Below, one piece after another: positions 29,083 through 34,725 of a stretch of DNA of 64,000 nt. The notes beneath the pieces are model-generated. The model saw only the letters and a list, made by a program, of their open reading frames with translations, did no database searches and was not told where the DNA came from. The DNA lies in the NCBI GenBank assembly GCA_015478655.1, contig JADMIJ010000013.1, positions 1 through 64,000 on the forward strand. The letters are read 5' to 3'. A program made the position numbers and the translations under genes. Every line of letters starts with the position of its first letter. Positions within the stretch are counted from its first letter, which is position 1. The stretch is from Acidimicrobiales bacterium (GTDB taxonomy: Bacteria; Actinomycetota; Acidimicrobiia; Acidimicrobiales; RAAP-2).

Positions 29083-30051
29083 GTGATCGCATTGGCAATT
29101 GCCCTGAGTGTCGTGGTGCTGCTTCTGGCCGTGCTCGTCGCCGGCTTGTTGCGCAGTCATGCCGACATTCTCAAGGCCCTCCACGAGCTTGGGGTGGGAG
29201 TTGGAGAGCCTGGCACGCACAACCGCGACCTCGCCGAGCCCGGAGGATCGGACCCCGCCGACTCTGTGCATGTTCCCCTTACGATGGGCCCTCCACTGCC
29301 GGGCGAGCGCAATTCGACGTCGGCGCCGACGATTGCAGGCGTCGCGCCGAACGGCGATGCGGTGGCGGTCAACGTGGCGGGAGGCAGCCCGCTGACTCTG
29401 CTGGCATTCCTCTCCTCGGGGTGTGCCACCTGTGCAGGATTTTGGAGTGCGTTCCAGCAGCCTGACGACCTCGGTCTACCTGCCCACACCAGACTGGTTG
29501 TCGTCACCAAGGGGCCCGAGATGGAAATCCCCGCCGAGATCGCCCCTCATGTGCGATCCGGCCTGTCCGTGGTCATGTCGACCGATGCCTGGAGCGACTA
29601 CGAGGTTCCCGGCTCCCCGTTCTTTGTGCTTGTCGATGGCGACTCGGGCCGACGCATCGGTGAGGGGGTGGCGAACCACTTCCGGCAAGTGGTCGAACTG
29701 GTGCGGCGGGCTGAGGCCGATTCCAGGGCCTTCACAATCGAAAGCAAGGGCCGTGCGTCTTCTGAAGGCCTCGACGGTCCAGAGCGAGAACTGGCCAATG
29801 ACCGAGAGCTGGTCGCCGCCGGGATCCTTCCCGGGGATCCGAGTCTCTACCCGTCCTCGCTCGCTGATGTCTATGGGCCTGACGCAACCGGACACAACGA
29901 GGAGACCATCCGATCCGCATCACCGGGACCTCGTGCCTCAAGTCCACAAGGTCTACACAGCCCACAGCGTGTCCACACGTCACCGAACCAAACCGGTCGA
30001 CCACAGCCCTCGCAGGCGACAGTCAGTGCCCGGGACATCAAGGCGGACTGA
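29083..30051 (+). CDS. Membrane-anchored thioredoxin-like protein (TlpA/MauD type)
   Basis: A 322-residue protein with an N-terminal membrane anchor (residues 2-23) and a thioredoxin-like domain at about 80-215. The redox motif is C-A-T-C (Cys114, Cys117) in F-L-S-S-G-C-A-T-C-A-G-F-W, and the cis-proline is Pro179 in V-P-G-S-P-F-F. MauD, its closest functional analogue, helps form disulfides in the methylamine dehydrogenase small subunit. The C-terminal 90 residues are low-complexity. A strong GGAGG lies six bases before the GTG. First gene of a cluster with MauE-like and MauA-like genes, so disulfide formation in the Cys-rich product is the likely job. Confidence 0.82.
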   Translation: MIALAIALSVVVLLLAVLVAGLLRSHADILKALHELGVGVGEPGTHNRDLAEPGGSDPADSVHVPLTMGPPLPGERNSTSAPTIAGVAPNGDAVAVNVAGGSPLTLLAFLSSGCATCAGFWSAFQQPDDLGLPAHTRLVVVTKGPEMEIPAEIAPHVRSGLSVVMSTDAWSDYEVPGSPFFVLVDGDSGRRIGEGVANHFRQVVELVRRAEADSRAFTIESKGRASSEGLDGPERELANDRELVAAGILPGDPSLYPSSLADVYGPDATGHNEETIRSASPGPRASSPQGLHSPQRVHTSPNQTGRPQPSQATVSARDIKAD

Positions 30052-30057
30052 CTCACT

Positions 30058-30573
30058 GTGGCCATTCTGAGGGCTCACGGAATCGAGGCCCCGCTTCCCC
30101 TCGGGTTCGAGGGTCGTATCTTCACCCGCCTCTCGATCGGGGCCGAGGTGCCCCGTCCGGTGGCGCACTTTGCCACCTTCGCCCTTCCCGTCGAGGTCGG
30201 GGACTTCGGCGGTGGAGCAGTGAATTTGATGGGCGCGTCGGATATCTTCGCCGCTCTGTTCGAGTACGGCCCCGAGAGCGTCGGCAGGCAACTCTTTGCC
30301 CGCCAAGGCCTGCCCCGGTCCCTGGCTCCGACCGACTTTCGACCCTATGTGCTGCGCCGTGGATTGGGAGGTCAGTCGGGAACGCAGTGGTTCTTTACCG
30401 AGTCCGGGAGACCCTTCACGTTGTACGTCGTACTTGGAAGTCACATCCAGAGGAGCGCACTTGTCCCCAGGGTCAACGAACTGATCGGCAATGTGGCGGT
30501 CAGCCCCCCGGCCCAACCGTCCGGGCTTGCGTCCGCCCCTCTGACAACATCGACCGGTGCCCCGTGGAACTGA
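30058..30573 (+). CDS. Conserved hypothetical protein in MauD/MauE-like cluster
   Basis: A 171-residue soluble protein with no transmembrane segment or cysteine. A repeated pattern (P-L-P-L-G-F-E-G-R-I-F-T-R and L-Y-V-V-L-G-S-H-I-Q-R) suggests an alpha/beta fold, but I do not recognise a family. It starts six bases after the thioredoxin-like gene and overlaps the MauE-like gene by ten bases, so it is almost certainly co-translated with the cluster. The role is unknown; absence of cysteine argues against it being a redox carrier. Confidence 0.72.
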   Translation: MAILRAHGIEAPLPLGFEGRIFTRLSIGAEVPRPVAHFATFALPVEVGDFGGGAVNLMGASDIFAALFEYGPESVGRQLFARQGLPRSLAPTDFRPYVLRRGLGGQSGTQWFFTESGRPFTLYVVLGSHIQRSALVPRVNELIGNVAVSPPAQPSGLASAPLTTSTGAPWN

Positions 30574-31115
30574 TCGGGGTGTTTCTGGTTGCCTGTGGGC
30601 TGTTGATGGCAGCCGGTGTCGCCAAAGCCATTCGCCCTGATGACACCGCCAGAGCGTTGGCTGCGGTCTTCCCGGTCCCGATGCAGACCGTGCGGACGGC
30701 CGTACGCATGGGATCCATTGCCGAGGCGCTTCTGGGAGCGGCTGCCCTGGTGGTCCCACGCACGGCGTCAGCGGCTCTCGTGGCGATGTCGTACGCAGCC
30801 TTTGCCGTTGTTGTGGCCCTGGCGCGATCGAAGGGAGGAGCCATCGCCAGCTGCGGATGCTTCGGGACTCCTGACACGCCGGCCACCGCGGTGCACATCG
30901 TCGTCAACGTCGGGCTGGCTGTGTCGGCGTCGGCCGTGGCGATGGCAAACCCGGCTGGGACGATCGTATCGATCCTCTCCCGGGAGCCGTTGCACGGCGT
31001 GCCGTTGGTCGCGTTGAGCGCACTGTGTGGGTGGCTCGCCTATCTTGCCATCTCGGCACTGGCGTCACTCCAGGGGGCGCGCCGCCTGACCGCGATCTCG
31101 TTTCGATCGCGGTGA
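30564..31115 (+). CDS. MauE/DoxX-like redox-associated membrane protein
   Basis: A 183-residue protein with about four hydrophobic segments and the motif S-C-G-C-F-G (Cys97, Cys99) at the membrane edge, characteristic of MauE-like proteins. In methylotrophs MauE works with MauD to maturate the disulfide-rich MADH small subunit. The GTG start lies inside the previous gene's end, giving a 10-base overlap. The same C-G-C-F pattern is used by vitamin-K/DoxX-type redox proteins. Function is inferred from family and neighbours. Confidence 0.83.
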   Translation: MELIGVFLVACGLLMAAGVAKAIRPDDTARALAAVFPVPMQTVRTAVRMGSIAEALLGAAALVVPRTASAALVAMSYAAFAVVVALARSKGGAIASCGCFGTPDTPATAVHIVVNVGLAVSASAVAMANPAGTIVSILSREPLHGVPLVALSALCGWLAYLAISALASLQGARRLTAISFRSR

Positions 31116-31182
31116 CCCCGATCCTGCTCCTCGCCTCCGTAGCCCAAGACTGTGATCCGACGACCGTGATGACCAAAAGACC

Positions 31183-32586
31183 GTGACCCAGACCCTCGTC
31201 GAGCGGGCATCCGCCTTTCTCGAATCCAAGCTGTCGCGCCGCAGCTTCATCAACCGCTCCGCCTATGCCGGCAGCGCCGTCGCCATCGGGGCCGGTCTCG
31301 ATCTCGTCCTCAAGCCGGGCACCGCCTACGGCCTGGTCTGCACCTGTGGCAACACCAATTGCGGGTGCGGATCGACCTGTTGTGCCGGGTTCACCGAGTT
31401 CTGCTGCTCGGTCAACGGGGGCTACAACTACTGCCCGGCCAACTCGGTGATGGGCGGTTGGTGGAAGGCGGACAACTCGTCCTTCTGCGGGGGCCCCCGC
31501 TACTACATGGACTGCAATGCCACCTGCACCTGCACTACGGGATGCGGCAACGGGTGGGCCTTCTGCGAGCCGGGCTGCGATGGGACCAGTTGCGGCTGTG
31601 GGGCCAACGGGTGCAACTCCTTCGTCACCGGGTGCTTCCAGTTCCGATACGGCCAGTGCAATCAGGATGTCAGCTGCATGGGTCGGATCGTTTGCCGGGT
31701 CGTGGCCTGCATCCCTCCGTGGCAGATCGATCCGTCGTGCACCACCACCAACGCGCAGGACAACAGCACTGCGGAGCAGAATGCCGCCTGCTGGACACCG
31801 GCCACCCCGTCCCCCCCACCGGCGCCTTGCACGTCAGCGTCGACCAACTGCCAGGTCATCGGGGTCGCGCCGAGCGCTGACGGCGGGGGCTATGGAATGG
31901 TCACCACCTTCGGGAGGGTGTTGACCTTCGGTGACTTCCGAAATCAGGGCGACGTGTCCGGCATCGCGCTGAGCAAGCCCATCGTGGGCATTGCCGAGCG
32001 CCAGTCCAGTGGCTACTACTTGGTAGCGGCCGATGGTGGGATCTTCTGCCTCGGAGGCGCTCCGTTCTTCGGTTCCATGGGCGGTCGTCCTCTCAACAAG
32101 CCGATGGTGGGAATGGCGGCGACGCCATCCGGAAACGGCTACTGGACCGTGGCCTCCGACGGCGGCATCTTCTCCTTCGGCGACGCCGCGTTCTACGGCT
32201 CGATGGGCGGTCACCCGCTCAACAAGCCCGTGGTGGGCATGGCGGCTACGCCTTCTGGCCGCGGTTACTGGTTCGTGGCCTCGGACGGCGGGATCTTCTC
32301 CTTCGGCGACGCCCCGTTCTACGGCTCGATGGGAGGACGGCTGCTCAACAAGCCCGTGGTGGGCATGGCGGTGACGCCCTCGGGACGGGGCTACTGGTTC
32401 GTCGCCTCCGACGGCGGCATCTTCTCGTTCGGCGACGCCCAGTACTACGGCTCGATGGGGGGTCGGTCGCTCAACCGTCCGATCGTGGGGATGGCTGCCG
32501 CCCCTTCAGCCCAGGGGTACTGGCTGGTTGCCCAGGACGGCGGCATCTTCACGTTCAATGTTCCCTTCTTCGGTTCCCCCGCCTGA
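31183..32586 (+). CDS. MauA-like cysteine-rich Tat protein fused to 42-residue repeats
   Basis: A 467-residue exported protein. S-R-R-S-F-I-N (18-24) plus a hydrophobic stretch form a Tat signal. Residues about 50-225 hold 28 cysteines and the blocks G-G-W-W-K-A-D and C-F-Q-F-R-Y-G-Q-C, recognisable from actinobacterial proteins annotated as methylamine dehydrogenase light chain. Trp93 or Trp94 aligns with the first TTQ-forming Trp of MauA. The second TTQ Trp seems replaced, since the matching region reads F-R-Y-G-Q-C, so a canonical quinone cofactor is doubtful. From about residue 235 there are 42-residue G-Y-W-x-V-A-S-D-G-G-I-F repeats, presumably a surface beta structure. No MauB (large subunit) is nearby. 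Confidence 0.78.
   Translation: MTQTLVERASAFLESKLSRRSFINRSAYAGSAVAIGAGLDLVLKPGTAYGLVCTCGNTNCGCGSTCCAGFTEFCCSVNGGYNYCPANSVMGGWWKADNSSFCGGPRYYMDCNATCTCTTGCGNGWAFCEPGCDGTSCGCGANGCNSFVTGCFQFRYGQCNQDVSCMGRIVCRVVACIPPWQIDPSCTTTNAQDNSTAEQNAACWTPATPSPPPAPCTSASTNCQVIGVAPSADGGGYGMVTTFGRVLTFGDFRNQGDVSGIALSKPIVGIAERQSSGYYLVAADGGIFCLGGAPFFGSMGGRPLNKPMVGMAATPSGNGYWTVASDGGIFSFGDAAFYGSMGGHPLNKPVVGMAATPSGRGYWFVASDGGIFSFGDAPFYGSMGGRLLNKPVVGMAVTPSGRGYWFVASDGGIFSFGDAQYYGSMGGRSLNRPIVGMAAAPSAQGYWLVAQDGGIFTFNVPFFGSPA
31885..32580 (+). repeat. Tandem 126-bp coding repeats
   Basis: About five and a half units begin near 31885 (degenerate), 32011, 32137, 32263, 32389 and 32515, each encoding 42 residues with core G-Y-W[14 protein letters not shown]. 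They are close relatives of the repeats at 20.96-21.71 kb, but carry F-Y-G-S-M-G-G instead of F-F-G-S-T-G. Confidence 0.85.
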
Positions 32587-32683
32587 CGATGGGCGCCGAG
32601 CTCCACATGGCACCGAGGGCTTCTTGTGGCTGTCGCCCCATTCCGATCACAACCCGACCCCACCTGTCCCACCGAGGAGCACC

Positions 32684-33607
32684 ATGACCCTTGCCATCGC
32701 TGTGTCCGCAACGTTGGTGGCCGTGACTGCCGCCGCTCGATCGACCTGGTCGCCGTGCGGATTGTCCATGCTCTCCACCATCACCCCGATCAGCGAGCGA
32801 GCGAAGGGAAACTCCTATCGCTCGACGGCGATGTGGTTCGTGGCCGGTGCCACCGTCGGTGGCGCCACACTGGGTGCGGCCATGGCCGGGTTGGCAGGCG
32901 CGGTCCGGTCTGTAGACCTCTCACCCACTGCCGCCGGCCTCCTGGCCACCGGGGCCGCACTCATCGCCGCTGCTTCCGATGCCGGGGTCGTCGGCCTCAG
33001 GCTGCCGATTCATCGTCGCCAGGTGAACGAGCGGTGGCTCGACCAGTACCGACCCTGGGTCTACGGCAGCGGCTTCGGCTGGCAGATCGGGACCGGACTG
33101 GCTACCTACATCACCACGGCCGCCGTCTACCTGATGGTCGTCCTCGGAGCCTTGACGGCCGATCCGGTCACGGCGCTGGCCGTGGGCACCGCCTTCGGGC
33201 TTCTTCGGGGCTTGGCCGTTCTCCTCACCCGCCGCATGACCGATCCGTCGGCGCTACGCCGCTTCCACCGTCGTTTCCAGCTGGTGGGACCGTGGGTGAG
33301 CCGGGTCGTGGTCGTGGTCGAGACCGGCACCGCCATCGCCATGGTCAGCTACCTCCGATCCCCGGCAGCCCTGGTGATGATCGGAGTCGCGGTGATTGGC
33401 GTCGCAGTGATCGGAATCGCGGTGGGTGCACCCCCGGCGGCTCTCATCGCCAAGAGGTCCGTGCGCGTCGCTGCACCAGCCTGCCCGCTCCCCGCTGCCG
33501 TCTCGTCCCCGGCCGGCCGGGCCCGAACTGCCGTGGCCATTGACGCGTCAGGCTCAGACGTCCCGGTCGATCTGGTCGGGCACGGAGCCCTGAGTCCCAG
33601 GGACTGA
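32684..33607 (+). CDS. CcdA/DsbD-like membrane protein
   Basis: A 307-residue membrane protein with six or more hydrophobic segments. W-S-P-C-G-L-S-M-L (Cys25) at the first helix resembles the L-S-P-C-V-L-P motif of CcdA, which passes electrons across the membrane. The region that in CcdA carries the second cysteine (F-G-W-T-P-C) reads F-G-W-Q-I-G-T-G here, so that cysteine is missing. The ATG has GAGGAG at proper spacing, ruling out the longer frame. It follows the MauA-like gene by 97 bases and may supply reductant to the cluster. Assignment is by motif only. Confidence 0.65.
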   Translation: MTLAIAVSATLVAVTAAARSTWSPCGLSMLSTITPISERAKGNSYRSTAMWFVAGATVGGATLGAAMAGLAGAVRSVDLSPTAAGLLATGAALIAAASDAGVVGLRLPIHRRQVNERWLDQYRPWVYGSGFGWQIGTGLATYITTAAVYLMVVLGALTADPVTALAVGTAFGLLRGLAVLLTRRMTDPSALRRFHRRFQLVGPWVSRVVVVVETGTAIAMVSYLRSPAALVMIGVAVIGVAVIGIAVGAPPAALIAKRSVRVAAPACPLPAAVSSPAGRARTAVAIDASGSDVPVDLVGHGALSPRD

Positions 33608-33699: not shown

Positions 33700-34725
33700 T
33701 CAGTCGATGTCGGCGGCCCGAGATGTCGAGGTGGTCGACGGGACGTGGGCCGGCGCTCGGGCTCCGGCGCCCTCATCCTCCATCGCTGCCTGTTCCGCTG
33801 ATCCGGAGAGGGCCGGGTCTCCGCCCGGATCTTCACCGGAGTCGGCCTCGACAACCGCGCCGGACGCAGCCACCGGTTCGGGATCACCACCCTCACCCCG
33901 CCTCCAGCGCTGAAGCGGGCCGATCCGCGAGACCAGGAGGGCCGCACCCACCACCGCAAGGGCGATTCCGGCAATCTGGACCAGAAGCGATCCGAGGTGT
34001 CCGTCCTCACCGAGCCACAGGCGCTCGTCGAGGAACCGCTCGATGCCCCAGAGCACCATGCCGACACCGAGCACGATCCCCGCCGGTGGCAGCAACCTGG
34101 TTGACCCAGGAGCAGCGGTGCCGTCGGCGGAACCGATCGGCGCCGGGGCAATGGAGCGGAGCCAGCGCTCGACAAGCAACAGGATCCCGAAGATGGCGAA
34201 GTCTTCCATCGCCTGAAAAATCGGTACTGGGAGCCGCCTTCCACTCTGGCCGGCGTAGTACATGCCGAACCACTGGTTGGTCCTGTGCCCCCCTCCGGCC
34301 ACCATCAGCTGGGGACCGAGCAGGCGGCCGATGCCCCAGCACGCCATGAGCACCGGTGCCATCAGATCGGCGAATCGCATCGCCTGCAGTTGGGGGCAGC
34401 GCCGCCGCATGCTGATGATGGCGACCGGCACGGCGAACAGGAGACCACCGAACGATGACAGGCCACCCTGCCAGATGGCGAGGACCTGTCCCGGATTGTG
34501 CGTGTAAAAGGAGAGGTTGGAGAGAACGTGGAGGGCCCGGGCCCCGACGATGGCCGCAACGATGACCCACACGAACATCCCGGTGACCCACTGCCAGGGA
34601 TAGCCGGCCTTGCGCAACCTCCGCTCGGTGTAGCGAAGCCCGAACCAGAACGTCAGGGCCAGCCCGATTCCGTAGGTGTGCACCTCAAGGAACCAGACGT
34701 GGAACGCGACGGGGATGGGTCTCAT
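33700..34725 (-). CDS. Prolipoprotein diacylglyceryl transferase family protein (divergent Lgt)
   Basis: A 341-residue seven-helix protein like Lgt, which adds diacylglycerol to lipoprotein cysteines. The G-A-R (61-63) and G-G-L-S-S-F-G-G (87-94) motifs are present and the C-terminal R-x-x-E region reads W-G-I-E-R-F. The Lgt signature G-R-x-G-N-F-x-N-x-E is degenerate here: G-R-L-L-G-P-Q-L-M at 133-141 lacks the conserved Asn and Glu. It may therefore be a paralogue with altered substrate rather than the housekeeping enzyme. The last 75 residues are Glu/Ala/Pro-rich and disordered. It converges on the CcdA-like gene. Confidence 0.72.
   Translation of the reverse strand: MRPIPVAFHVWFLEVHTYGIGLALTFWFGLRYTERRLRKAGYPWQWVTGMFVWVIVAAIVGARALHVLSNLSFYTHNPGQVLAIWQGGLSSFGGLLFAVPVAIISMRRRCPQLQAMRFADLMAPVLMACWGIGRLLGPQLMVAGGGHRTNQWFGMYYAGQSGRRLPVPIFQAMEDFAIFGILLLVERWLRSIAPAPIGSADGTAAPGSTRLLPPAGIVLGVGMVLWGIERFLDERLWLGEDGHLGSLLVQIAGIALAVVGAALLVSRIGPLQRWRRGEGGDPEPVAASGAVVEADSGEDPGGDPALSGSAEQAAMEDEGAGARAPAHVPSTTSTSRAADID

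Follow-up and report, generated by a model that had tools for sequence, protein, structure and literature searches.

Five co-directional genes in a 64,000-nucleotide stretch of DNA from an Acidimicrobiales bacterium (assembly GCA_015478655.1, contig JADMIJ010000013.1, positions 1 to 64,000; hereafter the window) appear to encode a system that exports and folds an extremely disulfide-rich cell-surface protein. This five-gene cluster (A to E; 29083-33607, + strand) is carried by many soil and freshwater actinobacteria. It combines homologues of the methylamine utilization (mau) proteins MauD (A), MauE (C) and MauF (E) with a cysteine-rich protein (D) bearing a twin-arginine translocation (Tat) leader and a conserved protein of no assigned family (B). 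The larger finding is a MauF-type membrane protein that has cysteine and putative selenocysteine (Sec) forms and is linked with a family of Cys-rich surface-type proteins, the form in the window being the Cys one. Very probably the cluster is a dedicated export-and-folding module in which MauF/E/D-type disulfide maturation serves an envelope-associated, MauA-like protein that lacks the tryptophan tryptophylquinone (TTQ) cofactor. The original prediction, an earlier description of this stretch drawn from its letters, overlooked two points: that E is a MauF, and that UGA stands at its cysteine in many relatives.

A Complete MauF-MauE-MauD Trio

All five open reading frames are confirmed. Profiles of A, C and E were compared by hhalign with those of MauD (n = 6), MauE (n = 6) and MauF (n = 3) taken from annotated plasmids. 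A (29083-30051, + strand; 322 residues) is a membrane-anchored, thioredoxin-like protein with one N-terminal transmembrane segment and a CxxC motif at residues 114-117. The earlier view of it as a MauD analogue holds as remote homology (probability 98.2, E 6e-14) but not as family membership, since it scores 14.5 bits against the MauD model TIGR02661, far under the cut-off of 188.6. For C (30564-31115, + strand), a DoxX-type redox membrane protein, the assignment to MauE is borne out both by PF07291 (E 1e-14, 55.4 bits against a cut-off of 27) and by profile comparison (probability 97.0, E 1e-10). E (32684-33607, + strand) has 307 residues and about five transmembrane segments by hydropathy. 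It had been described as CcdA-like; profile comparison identifies it instead as homologous to MauF (174 columns; probability 98.5, E 2e-15) with the motif STWSPCG, in which Cys25 is the sole invariant Cys of E within 191 aligned residues. Mismatched pairs of A, C and E with MauD, MauE and MauF give probabilities of at most 0.6, and B has no match among the three. By these matches all of MauF, MauE and MauD of the mau operon have homologues here.

UGA at the Redox Site of MauF

Many E homologues appeared to end exactly at ...STWSP. The codon at the position of the window Cys could be read in 87 of 120 loci and is TGA in 58, TGC in 19 and TGT in 10; TAA or TAG was never seen there in these 87. 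Of 90 tblastn pieces of E, 58 align an in-frame TGA to the window Cys. No further conserved in-frame stop was found in A to E, other stops lying near gene ends only. Protein similarity continues for almost 200 residues past the TGA, for example over residues 68-265 in locus L040, where the site is at 77. The window itself carries TGC for the redox Cys (32756-32758, + strand), so that its own E has no UGA at this site; the same codon is TGA in many relatives and there probably read as Sec.

The sequence directly downstream of the UGA forms two hairpins resembling selenocysteine insertion sequences (SECIS). The sets of loci overlap in source, and 51 UGA and 29 Cys distinct 54-base sequences were therefore retained. 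In the UGA set the two hairpins comprise 13 pairs, are 98.8% paired and have 18 cells changed on both sides; neither their covariation score nor their pairing percentage was reached in any of 500 shuffles, a comparison that ignores relatedness. When the partners are slid, pairing falls to 35-48%. The 29 Cys sequences are 64.5% paired with no excess covariation. A covariance model of the hairpins (R1), built from the 51 UGA sequences and applied at E<0.01, finds 17 of 22 further UGA loci, among them L221 (75.8 bits, 1e-14), L233 (7e-7) and L236 (4e-6). The window retains a degenerate counterpart of the hairpins at 32759-32809 (+ strand; 19.3 bits, E 0.077). Rfam gave no match for locus L036.

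At +2 past the site, UGA genes mostly encode Glu (GESML), and Cys genes mostly Leu, Trp or another residue. In one locus (L203, genome G247) E has a TGT codon within a partly Sec-type context (GES...IHPLGE), and the genome encodes SelA; this E looks like a Sec-to-Cys change. As judged from codons and RNA folds, MauF seems to be a Cys/Sec protein family in which the UGA forms would contain selenium.

Selenocysteine Machinery in the Same Genomes

Among 64 genomes of the class with a strong E match (see below), 38 have one TGA inside that match, the codon itself having been read in the fetched loci only. A tRNA-Sec cut-off of E<=1e-10 was our own choice, since no clean gap separates the hits and weaker matches, resembling other tRNAs, occur in 295 of 296 genomes. 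At this cut-off tRNA-Sec is found in 34/38 UGA genomes and 8/26 others (Fisher p 1.8e-6), and SelA in 37/38 and 11/26, respectively (p 6e-7); both tests ignore kinship. One or other marker is present in all 38 UGA genomes as compared with 11 of the 26 others. In the window genome no SelA was found and the best tRNA-Sec match reaches only 2.8e-6, which fits its Cys codon. In one genome (G087, locus L047; G087:C12:195508-196638) a SelA gene lies less than 3 kb from the UGA-type MauF gene, a physical link seen in that genome alone.

Conservation and Co-Occurrence

Among 296 genomes of the class, taken to be Acidimicrobiia, 63 have the D head, that of the window included. A named genome collection contains it in 281 stretches, some of them from records (Kineococcus vitellinus, Acidiferrimicrobium sp. 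IK) that are not labelled as metagenome-assembled genomes. For locus comparison the best 80 of the 281 stretches were kept; together with the window these give 81 loci, of which 38 are well flanked, and only the five genes A to E were compared. Beside D in these 38 loci stand A (37), B (37), E (35) and C (32). The set of genes is conserved, in shuffled order: A-B-C-D-E in 13 loci, C-D-A-E-B in 11 and A-E-B-C-D in 5.

A profile of E matches 69 of the 296 genomes at E<=1e-5, of which 64 reach E<=1e-45. The five weaker matches comprise a piece cut at a contig end (G148) and four genomes in which D was not found (G079, G094, G196, G273). D and a strong E (E<=1e-45) are both present in 61 genomes, D only in two (G144, G148), E only in three (G158, G172, G191) and neither in 230 (Fisher test, kinship ignored). 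They therefore occur together in 61 of the 66 genomes having either, and this near one-to-one distribution points to D as the main client.

The Cysteine-Rich Protein D

D (31183-32586; 467 residues) consists of a head (31183-31830, + strand), made up of a Tat leader and a Cys-rich MauA-like domain, and a tail (31831-32586, + strand) of a linker and five repeats. The counts first reported for it, 28 Cys within residues 53-223 and W93 and W94, are correct. D has 29 Cys in total, a Tat-type SRRSF leader, and repeats spaced by 42 residues that start at 277, 319, 361, 403 and 445. An alignment of 40 heads contains 29 invariant columns, including GWW, RYxxDC and FRYGxC, and W93, W94 and D110 are invariant in the readable heads. 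TAT_signal_seq is matched at E<=1 by 29 of the 40. Cys residues were counted over a fixed region in 104 of 111 distinct heads, seven cut ones being left out; 26 Cys are present in 60/104, and the number is even in 96/104. Columns 55, 60, 62 and 67 covary as a set, as do 117 and 132, while 135 and 150 behave as an optional pair. Even numbers and covarying columns fit a largely disulfide-bonded head, although the bonds themselves are predicted from these patterns. A sequence search of the PDB with D returned no relative, only weak chance matches. The search with D also gave a second match in the window genome (G000:C67), spanning residues 15-68, i.e., the Tat leader and first Cys.

D proteins range from about 230 to 890 residues, and their tails vary among relatives (LGFP, SLH, ricin-type lectin, DUF4214 or repeats). 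Pfam searches of nine tails gave matches above cut-off to LGFP (L167, L184), SLH (L186), ricin-type lectin (L166) and DUF4214 (L163), and none over cut-off for the window repeats, L132, L138 and L152. The repeat domain to which the original prediction gave prominence is thus real in this D, but as one of several kinds of tail it does not define the system. In two genomes (G222, G247) D has no tail and the protein ends directly after the Cys-rich head (L202:3318-3962 and the D gene of L203). The TGA in these two genes was considered as a Sec codon and rejected, being an ordinary terminator right behind the head.

Relation of D to MauA

Gene context invites a comparison with MauA, the small subunit of methylamine dehydrogenase. 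The earlier description had called D MauA-like and proposed a profile check of its head against PF02975; neither this model nor TIGR02659 matches any of 40 D heads at E<=1. In the window genome, which is 92.9% complete, no match was found to PF02975 (MauA) or PF06433 (MauB), models for which no control genome scored over cut-off, nor to PF03150 (MauG), for which two controls did. A tblastn search of the window together with 165 loci (2.0 Mb) found no MauB, MauG or amicyanin. The reported absence of MauB and MauG is thereby upheld within this scope, as is the loss of the second TTQ Trp, D having no conserved Trp in a suitable position ahead of a Cys. A survey of PF02975 across 396 Actinomycetota genomes, with matches at E<=0.1 in 35 and none over cut-off, was of no use.

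Compared as whole proteins by hhalign, D and MauA align in the Tat region alone (probability 94.2, E 1e-7), indicating a Tat leader of the MauA kind. The invariant GWW...C...RYxxDC of D aligns weakly to the first TTQ Trp region of MauA, and better through a single intermediate sequence. This Tat protein (L201:6302-6979; G042:C8) adjoins MauE, MauD and the second MauF(UGA) of its genome. Over 83 columns its mature part matches MauA (probability 79, E 1.5e-5), and its match to D is weaker (probability 17, E 0.0015); the alignment runs from CC to the WW...DC motif. It has Trp at both TTQ-like places, unlike D, and no MauB or MauG was found by tblastn within the fetched locus; it is possibly a TTQ bearer or a missing link. 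A tblastn match of MauA to the D of L202 (E 7e-5), covering the leader and first Cys stretch, came from a search of a small database without complexity filtering and is not relied upon.

Filing D as a MauA was therefore rejected, as it lacks both a match to the family models and the MauB and MauG partners. D is probably MauA-like in its working and related to MauA, because of its Tat leader, its gene context and the intermediate protein, while standing outside the family; its function and homology are less certain than those of its partners.

Spread Beyond the Class and a Second Clade

At 1e-6, E is matched in 65 of 396 Actinomycetota genomes. Nine of these 65 belong to the class, and in 51 of the 65 the best match contains exactly one TGA. 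Outside the class the D-type cluster with UGA recurs in loci of 10 genomes (L214-L226), C not being seen in two short ones (L219, L220).

A second, distant clade (L197-L199, L227-L236) combines MauF(UGA) with MauD in all loci but L236, with MauE where detected, and with other Tat proteins. These are of two kinds. One has about 176 residues and the pattern W..CC...DCC (L227-L233, L236). The other has WGWCWY...CDCC and a long tail (L197-L199, L234, L235; e.g., L234:5128-6495) and adjoins MauD and MauF(UGA); the tail resembles what we take to be the CW_binding_2 wall-binding domain. Comparison of mature parts relates the two kinds to one another (E 5e-7), with no significant match to MauA or to D. 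In three further loci (L237, L239, L240) the first kind accompanies a Cys-type MauF.

It is reasonably likely that Actinomycetota possess a selenium-dependent disulfide pathway, in which a MauF-type membrane selenoprotein, MauE and MauD mature a whole superfamily of MauA-like Cys-rich proteins that are exported by Tat and lack TTQ. D and no fewer than two clade-2 kinds would belong to this superfamily, and methylamine dehydrogenase would be one specialized TTQ-bearing branch of the wider system.

Protein B, Gene Starts, and a Neighboring Gene

B (30058-30573, + strand; 171 residues) has no Cys and no predicted transmembrane segment and is probably cytosolic. No Pfam family matches more than one of its 38 homologues. 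MauJ was considered as an identity for B and rejected, as profile comparison gave no match and Pfam was likewise empty. By eye its fold may be PsbP/LpqN-like. The long open reading frame of C starts at 30387, within B; the true start of C probably lies between 30564 and 30606. E probably starts at the ATG at 32684 and not at the TTG (32528) of its open reading frame. About 90 bases beyond E ends a gene for an Lgt-like prolipoprotein diacylglyceryl transferase (33700-34725, - strand; PF01790, 102 bits).

A Model for Export and Disulfide Maturation

How might the five proteins work together? D would be exported via Tat, and its head, mostly with 26 Cys, would be locked by about 13 disulfides. 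A, tethered to the outside of the membrane, would make or reshuffle these bonds, while C and E may transfer electrons or thiol equivalents through the membrane and so hold A in the right state. E would act via a single catalytic residue, which lies within the motif STWSP(C/U)GxSML, presumably Sec in the Sec-decoding relatives and Cys in the window genome. B may guard or deliver D before export, and the tail, where present, would anchor D to the cell envelope. Lacking TTQ, D would not function as an amine dehydrogenase; most likely it provides a rigid, protease-proof binding or structural head. The original prediction had proposed that mau machinery was retained for a different surface protein. 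In general this idea is right: the mau-type genes do stand beside a Tat-exported Cys-rich protein with surface-type tails. In direct comparison, no significant likeness of the mature part of D to MauA emerged at the level of sequence.

Several observations weigh against this model. In comparison with MauA the mature D head scores 18.6, which is not significant and is reached by 2/100 full and 7/100 Cys-fixed column shuffles, and the number of Cys is odd in 8/104 heads. Weaker measures of covariation in the UGA hairpins are less decisive, pairs changed on both sides being equaled in 22/500 shuffles and further pair types in 23/500. Model R1 misses 5 of the 22 further UGA loci (L197-L199, L234, L235), where single-sequence folds give hairpins of different sequence, and it matches 3 of 11 Cys loci (L202, L206, L209), so that shared coding sequence must add to its score. 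Four UGA genomes (G100, G182, G210, G232) have no tRNA-Sec at the cut-off and one (G188) no SelA, each keeping the other marker. The genes for E and D are widely separated in at least nine genomes (G035, G048, G066, G110, G180, G184, G190, G260, G263). Finally, B has no Pfam or NCBIfam match and no assigned role.

This unlinked E, together with the three genomes in which a strong E was found without D, would also suit a general, Dsb-like extracytoplasmic thiol-redox system with D as one client of many. Such a system seems unlikely given how nearly D and E co-occur one to one across the 296 genomes, though it is the most credible of the alternatives. Could D instead belong, as light chain, to a divergent amine dehydrogenase that has its Trp-derived quinone at W93/W94, is matured by an unlinked MauG and includes an unrecognized large subunit? 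Three mau maturation genes are present, and the invariant W93, W94 and D110 stand where TTQ Trp57 and Asp76 of methylamine dehydrogenase stand. The failure to find MauB or MauG, whether by PF06433 and PF03150 in the nearly complete genome (along with PF02975, and subject to the control limits given above) or in the window and 165 loci, makes this reading very improbable, and a conserved second Trp is missing from D where TTQ would have it.

Just as improbable is the reading that D gives rise to a disulfide-rich ribosomal peptide or another natural product, with the mau-type genes tailoring it, a role proposed in the relevant part of one report for Streptomyces mauE/mauD clusters with Cys-rich precursors (PMC7794033). 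Against such a precursor, D is a Tat protein of about 230-890 residues, often with a tail of the wall-binding type, and its head is long and conserved, not hypervariable, in a comparison limited to genes A to E. The TGA in E might also be a plain stop, leaving a split or pseudogenized MauF that re-initiates at an ATG four codons downstream (in GESML); that codon is indeed ATG in 50 of 51 distinct UGA sequences (GTG in L160). Yet the codon is solely TGA, the upstream segment and motif are kept in frame, covarying hairpins follow in the UGA genes, every one of the 38 UGA genomes has Sec machinery, and the same site recurs in the second clade. A stop is accordingly the least probable reading of all, and an exceedingly poor one beside the dedicated maturation of D by the MauF, MauE and MauD homologues.

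Comparison With Known Systems

The closest parallel is the mau operon of Paracoccus denitrificans (mauF-B-E-D-A, amicyanin, mauJ, mauG; locus L102), in which MauF, MauE and MauD homologues likewise surround a Tat-type Cys-rich protein. In the present cluster, by contrast, MauB, MauG, amicyanin and MauJ were not found and B is additional; D has mostly 26 head Cys, is usually tailed and has no second TTQ Trp, and MauF is often of the UGA type. In the passages of PMC7794033 dealing with these genes, MauE is speculated to act in forming the disulfides of the beta subunit. An incomplete mau set is also described, in the part of the report concerned, in Methylacidiphilum infernorum, whose mauBEDA cluster occurs although growth of the organism on methylamine was not demonstrated (PMC2474590); as described there it retains MauA, MauB and a MauG homologue and lacks MauF, unlike the window.

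The Streptomyces clusters predicted by decRiPPter contain mauE, and once mauD, beside Cys-rich precursors, and the pertinent section proposes that the Mau proteins modify the peptides (PMC7794033). They resemble the window cluster in that these mau genes adjoin a Cys-rich product, in actinobacteria with no further mau genes, so that re-use of the mau maturation genes was, on the strength of that section, already suspected. These products are predicted to be precursors of ribosomally synthesized and post-translationally modified peptides, and that section mentions neither MauF nor Sec, in contrast to the window system. The Cys/Sec alternation in MauF resembles that of other bacterial redox selenoproteins, for which the portion of PMC1794560 concerned describes Sec evolving at redox Cys sites and Sec and Cys homologues side by side. 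In term searches, MauF, CcdA and DsbD do not occur in PMC1794560 or PMC5322559, CcdA, DsbD and methylamine do not occur in PMC9312934, and CcdA, Mau and methylamine do not occur in PMC12013277. No report of a MauF selenoprotein was recognized in the open PMC literature, a scope that leaves aside subscription papers and preprints.

Implications

If this reading is correct, MauF would constitute a new family of membrane selenoproteins in a sizeable part of the actinobacterial phylum, and annotation would be expected to cut its UGA-type genes short at the UGA. The chemistry of MauF, MauE and MauD would become testable, with natural Cys/Sec pairs pointing to the catalytic residue of MauF and the 26-Cys clients offering a direct disulfide read-out. 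Selenium use would be tied to the folding of extracellular proteins, and the mau maturation genes would form a wider toolkit for Cys-rich surface proteins, not one specific to methylamine.

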